Positions 42,123-42,794 of a stretch of DNA of 64,000 bases are shown in pieces (position 1 is the first letter of the stretch; each line of letters begins with the position of its first letter). The translations under genes and the position numbers were made by a program. This DNA is from Microbispora sp. ZYX-F-249. Lineage in GTDB: Bacteria > Actinomycetota > Actinomycetes > Streptosporangiales > Streptosporangiaceae. The stretch lies in the NCBI RefSeq assembly GCF_039649665.1, contig NZ_JBDJAW010000007.1, positions 62,001 through 126,000 on the forward strand. The letters are read 5' to 3'. The notes beneath the pieces are model-generated. The model saw only the letters and a program-made list of their open reading frames with translations, had not been told where the DNA came from and did not search any database.

Positions 42123-42794
42123 GTGAAGGGCGATGGGAACGTGAAGGGCGTGGCCATCGTCCGCCTGGGTGTCGACGTTCCGTACGAGCAGGCCTGGACC
42201 CTGCAGCGGCGGCTGCACGCCCGGCGGGCGGCCGACGAGATCTCCGACCTGTGCCTCATGCTGGAGCACGCCCCCGTCTACACGGCGGGCAAGCGGACGC
42301 TGCCGCACGAGCGGCCGGTCGACGGCACGCCGGTGATCGACGTCGACCGGGGCGGAAAGATCACCTGGCATGGCCCGGGTCAGCTCGTCTGCTACCCCAT
42401 CATCCGCATCGGCGACGTGGTCACCTACGTCCGGGCGCTGGAGGAGGTCCTGATCCAGGTCTGCGCCGACTTCGGGCTGACCGCGCGCCGGGTCGAGGGC
42501 GCCGGCGGGGTGTGGGTGCCCGGCGACCCCGCGCACGGGCTGCCCGACCGCAGGCTCGGCACGATCGGCATCCGGGTCTCCGGCGGGGTCACCATGCACG
42601 GCTTCGCGCTCAACTGCGTCAACGACCTGAGCTGGTACACCCGCATCACCGGCGACGACGCCGGAGTCACGTCGCTGTCGGCCGAGACCGGCCGGCGGAT
42701 CACGGTCGACGAGGTCATCCCGTTCGCCGGCAAGCGCCTCGCCGAGGCCCTCGGCCAGGAGCCGTACGACCTGTACGAGGAGGACATCGCCTGA
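42123..42794 (+). CDS. lipB: LipB homologue lacking the catalytic Cys/Lys dyad
   Basis: 223-residue protein of the octanoyltransferase LipB family, which normally moves octanoyl from acyl-carrier protein to lipoyl domains. The substrate-pocket motif RGGKITWHGPGQLVCYP and the HGFALNC strand are intact. The dyad is not: the Lys before the A-I-G-V-R strand is Arg (R144), and the PCGI motif that carries the nucleophile is replaced by TGD (T176-D178), about three residues shorter. GTG 42123 lies 6 nt after TACGCT (42111-42116). The order lipB-lipA agrees with other actinobacteria. It is either inactive or works by a different chemistry. Confidence 0.85.
   Translation: MKGDGNVKGVAIVRLGVDVPYEQAWTLQRRLHARRAADEISDLCLMLEHAPVYTAGKRTLPHERPVDGTPVIDVDRGGKITWHGPGQLVCYPIIRIGDVVTYVRALEEVLIQVCADFGLTARRVEGAGGVWVPGDPAHGLPDRRLGTIGIRVSGGVTMHGFALNCVNDLSWYTRITGDDAGVTSLSAETGRRITVDEVIPFAGKRLAEALGQEPYDLYEEDIA

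Follow-up and report, generated by a model that had tools for sequence, protein, structure and literature searches.

A likely pseudo-octanoyltransferase encoded upstream of lipA in Microbispora

The window, by which we mean the whole stretch of 64,000 nucleotides that was analysed, encodes a LipB homologue that lacks both residues of the LipB catalytic dyad (copy A; 42123..42794, plus strand), and the same genome encodes a second LipB that has both (copy B). As judged from sequence comparisons, the two residues have been lost stepwise and repeatedly in copy A and its relatives, the remainder of the protein has been conserved and the gene kept, and most of the relatives measured have it close to lipA. 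We infer that copy A is inactive and that octanoyl transfer has passed to copy B, and our best explanation, to which we assign a probability of about 0.55, is that copy A is a pseudo-octanoyltransferase, copy B being the predicted transferase, and that it serves LipA in a binding or hand-off role, holding octanoyl-ACP or octanoyl-lipoyl domains without catalysis.

Copy A is 223 amino acids long from a GTG start, with the GTGs at 42141 and 42150 as alternative start candidates. It has the LipB fold, with profile search scores of 278.5 bits against NF010925 (cut-off, 155) and 101.1 bits against TIGR00214 (cut-off, 83.55), and it keeps the substrate pocket motif RGGKITWHGPGQ, which begins at residue 76 (42348..42383, plus strand). 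However, both catalytic features of LipB, namely, the catalytic Lys and the acyl-accepting Cys of the PCG loop, are missing. First, the residue read-out of a phmmer alignment shows that Arg144 (codon 42552..42554, plus strand) replaces the catalytic Lys (K135 in E. coli), and lies opposite the K of RKVAAIG in LipB from M. tuberculosis (1w66). Second, TGD (residues 176-178; 42648..42656, plus strand) occupies the site of the lost PCGI motif with its catalytic Cys (C169 in E. coli), where the alignment with 1w66 shows a three-residue gap at the PCGIS loop; the active-site loop is accordingly three residues shorter than in PCGI-bearing LipBs. A preliminary description of this DNA had named both replacements and an in-frame loss of about three residues at the Cys motif, and had recommended alignment with the M. 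tuberculosis enzyme; translation and the phmmer alignment proved it correct to the residue. Essential catalytic residues have thus been lost, as in pseudoenzymes, and since two defining catalytic features are absent, copy A is not to be filed as an active LipB; octanoyl transfer to the lipoyl domain is predicted to be absent. In a comparison of this locus with named records, the best 80 stretches were kept out of at least 594; the nearest among them comes from Microbispora sp. H13382, with 99% identity.

Copy B (G000:C4:74143-74778, minus strand, 212 amino acids) bears the motifs GRKIVSIG and PCGM, that is, both the Lys and the Cys. It had been foreseen that another transferase would be encoded elsewhere and that a genome search could reveal a second LipB, and such an intact protein was found in copy B, the only other PF21948 match in the genome. 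Any further PF21948 protein as octanoyl supplier was ruled out, as the whole-genome profile search returned just these two LipBs. Both residues are kept in copy B of all 74 genomes with a strongly similar B, and in 77/77 copies once three divergent ones (from G031, G039 and G146) are added. The divergent second LipBs of G039, G031 and G146 (L215, L216 and L217) are about 51-54% identical to copy B and may mark its origin. The copy B gene is flanked by an ORF of an APH-family phosphotransferase and an ORF without Pfam match (L001, 484-1479 and 2563-3150), and further lipoate genes were not seen around it within the 3.6 kb locus. Copy B has probably taken over octanoyl transfer from copy A.

The distribution of both copies supports this division. 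Copy A lacks both residues in 15/15 Microbispora genomes examined, all of which have a copy B with both, and in the five named Microbispora loci of another collection (5/5). Among 74 two-copy genomes, which comprise the B-carriers of a 150-genome family sample plus extra genus genomes, each with strong matches to A and B, copy A keeps both residues in 10; in 32 the Lys alone is lost, in another 32 both are, and in none is the Cys alone lost. The B-carriers form a compact set within the family sample, and no B-carrier was found without copy A (74/74). In the sampled family genomes without copy B, Lys and Cys are present in 81/81 LipBs, a control that covers the whole family sample (40 read first and the remaining 41 later). 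These searches were done on samples of 150 genomes from a larger group, and removal of repeated loci per genome and of matches below 80 bits left 193 sequences (116 A and 77 B). Further PF21948 proteins occur in some genomes without copy B, and a LipB match was sought but not found in L035, L036, L042, L044, L055 and L056. Dyad loss was seen only alongside a copy B.

Wider searches gave a similar picture. Relatives of both copies were drawn from 5.8 billion proteins, taking the best 120 of thousands: among the best 120 of 8000 scored relatives of copy A, both residues are kept in 29, the Lys alone is lost in 65, both are lost in 26 and the Cys alone in none, a set that is not independent of the 74 genomes because many of its members come from the same genera and the same clade; the best 120 relatives of copy B have Lys and Cys in 120/120. 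The 80 named loci retained as the best from 594 or more stretches comprise 61 LipBs from outside the clade, all with both residues, and 19 from inside it, of which 13 are Lys-less and 6 dyad-less. When a new lineage was sought in an order sample of 121 genomes, the matches listed came from the same family alone.

These counts, in which Cys-only losses are absent, imply that loss was stepwise and repeated. By parsimony, the Lys state changes at least seven times and the Cys state three times on a tree from which the trait columns had been excluded, and 13 and four times, respectively, on a second tree that includes additional two-copy relatives; both trees were built quickly and many of their forks are weak, and these changes count gains and losses together. 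All Cys losses observed fall among Lys-less proteins. The Lys is substituted by R, Q, M, G, A or L in copies A of the family genomes and additionally by S, N or P among the best 120 database relatives, and residue 144 of the dyad-less forms is Arg in 29/32 and M or A in the other three. Two copies A (L099 and L109) have Trp at the position of the catalytic Cys (PWGV) and an unchanged loop length, which may be compared with P0064 from Thermopolyspora flexuosa. The joint loss of both dyad members that had been proposed does not hold, because relatives show that the Lys was lost first and the Cys afterwards, with the Microbispora copy A, on this sequence evidence, as the end point of the process.

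The genomic neighbourhood links copy A with lipoate metabolism. Gene order in the window is lpd, sucB, an epimerase gene, a peptidase-S51 protein gene, lipB copy A, a 390-amino-acid ORF without Pfam match (window 43195-44364), lipA, and a DUF4191 gene. The lipA gene (44503..45444, plus strand) encodes the only LipA of the genome above the family cut-off, a lipoyl synthase whose cysteine and other motifs (CX4CX5C, CX3CX2C and RSSY) are all present, in agreement with its previous description as intact. According to profile matches, sucB (38789..40300, plus strand) encodes an E2 that has a single lipoyl domain and is likely to be a target of lipoylation. The actinobacterial model TIGR02927 (579 positions) extends further at its N-terminal side, so that one lipoyl domain may have been lost from this SucB. 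One GcvH and 11 biotin/lipoyl domain matches, SucB among them, indicate that lipoylation targets exist in the genome.

In 56/56 two-copy genomes measured, copy A precedes lipA on the same strand, at a distance of 12-329 bp in 45 of them and of 1.0-5.1 kb in 11. These 56 are part of the 74 two-copy genomes; the other 18, 12 of them from Microbispora, dropped out where the flanking sequence did not reach far enough or no LipA was located. The short gaps would fit co-transcription, but the argument for an operon is made weaker by the longer ones, by the 1.7 kb gap with its extra ORF in the window, and by the 18/74 genomes outside the measurement. Two Microbispora genomes (G001 and G013) have gaps of the 12-329 bp class.

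Outside the active site, copy A has been conserved. Sixty-two columns are invariant in 49 intact LipBs, three others (the distant G043 and G147, and the partial G063) having been omitted from the calling, and what the 32 dyad-less proteins have lost of them is the Lys and P-C-G-I. With these positions excluded, 1758/1824 invariant cells (96%) are retained, a figure that counts Leu 96, invariant in intact LipBs and replaced by I or V in 30/32 dyad-less proteins. Neither the RGG loop nor any pocket histidine or glycine is altered in the 32 dyad-less proteins, and the claim that the pocket motif is conserved was upheld, since its R, G, G, W, H, G, P, G and Q are identical in 32/32 sequences, with T changed to A in 7/32. 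Median pairwise dN/dS, taken from pairs with dS of 0.1-1.5, was 0.220 for copy A and 0.178 for copy B within the genus (95/105 A pairs and 96/105 B pairs), and 0.268 and 0.181, respectively, over all dyad-less genomes; the somewhat higher values of copy A suggest that mild relaxation is possible. These comparisons indicate that copy A is under purifying selection, and thus has some function, although selection does not specify which one. A pseudogene was rejected on the basis of the unbroken frame in 74 genomes and the dN/dS of 0.22.

Conserved columns specific to the clade are more frequent in copy A than in LipA of the same two-copy genomes (16/84 vs 8/206; Fisher's test, p 7e-5, or 0.018 when calculated per alignment column), in a comparison that used 79 near-complete LipAs, of which 51 from two-copy genomes and 18 others were compared. 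Many of the copy A columns lie at the N and C termini, and they may be partly a lineage effect.

These data bear on the alternatives to our preferred reading. Copy A could be in slow decay, that is, a gene made redundant by copy B and on its way to being lost, active site first. This would agree with a stepwise loss found just where copy B exists and with the higher dN/dS of copy A. Yet decay would be expected to strike the 62 invariant columns more evenly, whereas 96% of the remaining cells are kept, members of the dyad-less group share a mean pairwise identity of 0.81, and the homologous stretch of 217-226 amino acids is unbroken in all 74 B-carriers; we consider this scenario unlikely. That copy A instead partners copy B rather than LipA, in a heteromer where its function is regulatory or structural, would account for the dependence of dyad loss on the presence of copy B, but the gene sits upstream of lipA and does not adjoin copy B, which makes such a partnership improbable.

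It has also been suggested that the protein uses different chemistry, and copy A could still be an enzyme acting through other pocket residues, in octanoyl or lipoyl transfer or on another acyl substrate. Conservation of the pocket residues RGG, WHGPGQ and HG, and the prevalence of Arg in the place of the Lys, speak in its favour. However, Arg is not universal there, and alignment against the intact LipBs showed no column in which a Cys or Lys had become conserved with the loss of the dyad: C165 is the same in every LipB compared, and two-copy relatives that keep the dyad already commonly have C114, C44 and K204 (full-length numbering). Rearranged chemistry is therefore unsupported and seems rather improbable; a relocated dyad lacks support for the same reason. 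Finally, a sequencing or assembly error has a negligible chance of explaining the dyad loss and was rejected, since the lesion recurs in all 15 genus genomes and all five named loci, and relatives have suffered repeated losses, as befits the real loss that had been presumed.

The reading of copy A as a non-catalytic binder is guided by E. coli LipB mutants described in one study (PMC9307952). First, K135A has a kcat of 0.04 rather than 0.22 min-1, about one fifth, and a 3.5-fold higher Km. Second, the K135A/C169A mutant, termed catalytically inactive, still binds C8-ACP (octanoyl-ACP) with a KD of 36 uM. Third, mutants of the RGG loop are impaired. By analogy, the residual activity of K135A suggests that Lys-less, Cys-bearing copies A are weak enzymes that likely retain some residual activity, and the dyad-less ones would be dead, yet possibly able to bind an octanoyl carrier. 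In view of these mutants, of the selection on copy A, of its retention and of its linkage to lipA, a binder of octanoyl carriers or octanoyl-lipoyl domains becomes the most likely identity for copy A. Octanoyl transfer would then be performed by copy B, intact at both residues, while copy A would bind octanoyl-ACP or octanoyl-lipoyl domains without catalysis, and would serve LipA by handing off the bound octanoyl carriers. More tentatively, and perhaps doubtfully, the lipoate pathway of these Streptosporangiaceae may include an extra non-catalytic part, in which a former octanoyltransferase feeds octanoyl-lipoyl domains or octanoyl-ACP to LipA and the second LipB is catalytic.

Source names among the best 120 copy A relatives listed are all LipB or octanoyltransferase (some entries being nameless), and an apparently dead enzyme of core cofactor metabolism is thus overlooked across a whole clade. 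Living species show every stage, from dyad intact through Lys-less to fully dead, and these intermediates, with the Lys lost first and the Cys later, several times, open the route from enzyme to pseudoenzyme to assay with present-day proteins. If the helper role is true, LipB has a non-catalytic duty that is separable from transfer.

Compared with known systems, copy A shares with LipB octanoyltransferases (NF010925, TIGR00214; 1w66, 2qhs) the fold, the pocket motifs, profile scores over the cut-offs and a gene position upstream of lipA, but has Arg for the catalytic Lys and no PCG loop with its nucleophilic Cys. The lipoate ligase LplA uses an active-site Lys, and a Lys of this type is missing from copy A, which has R144 and belongs to a dyad-less group with no newly conserved Lys. 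In LipM and LipL the Cys nucleophile sits on another loop; in alignment columns, the dyad-less group has no newly conserved Cys. Among the open PMC papers listed, none dealt with a LipB pseudoenzyme or, for these genera, with paired LipB paralogues, and the accessible part of a survey that covers LipB distribution makes no mention of a dead LipB copy (PMC10332631); dead paralogues are known in kind, with no lipoate-pathway case with living intermediates seen among the papers listed. The E. coli K135A/C169A mutant has lost the same two positions as copy A, is inactive and binds octanoyl-ACP; its alanines are man-made, whereas the loss in copy A is natural and repeated, with a remodelled loop and with binding as a prediction. 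Copy A resembles pseudoenzymes in general, that is, retained dead paralogues, in which catalytic residues are gone, fold and pocket are under purifying selection, and a paralogue still bears the catalytic residues.
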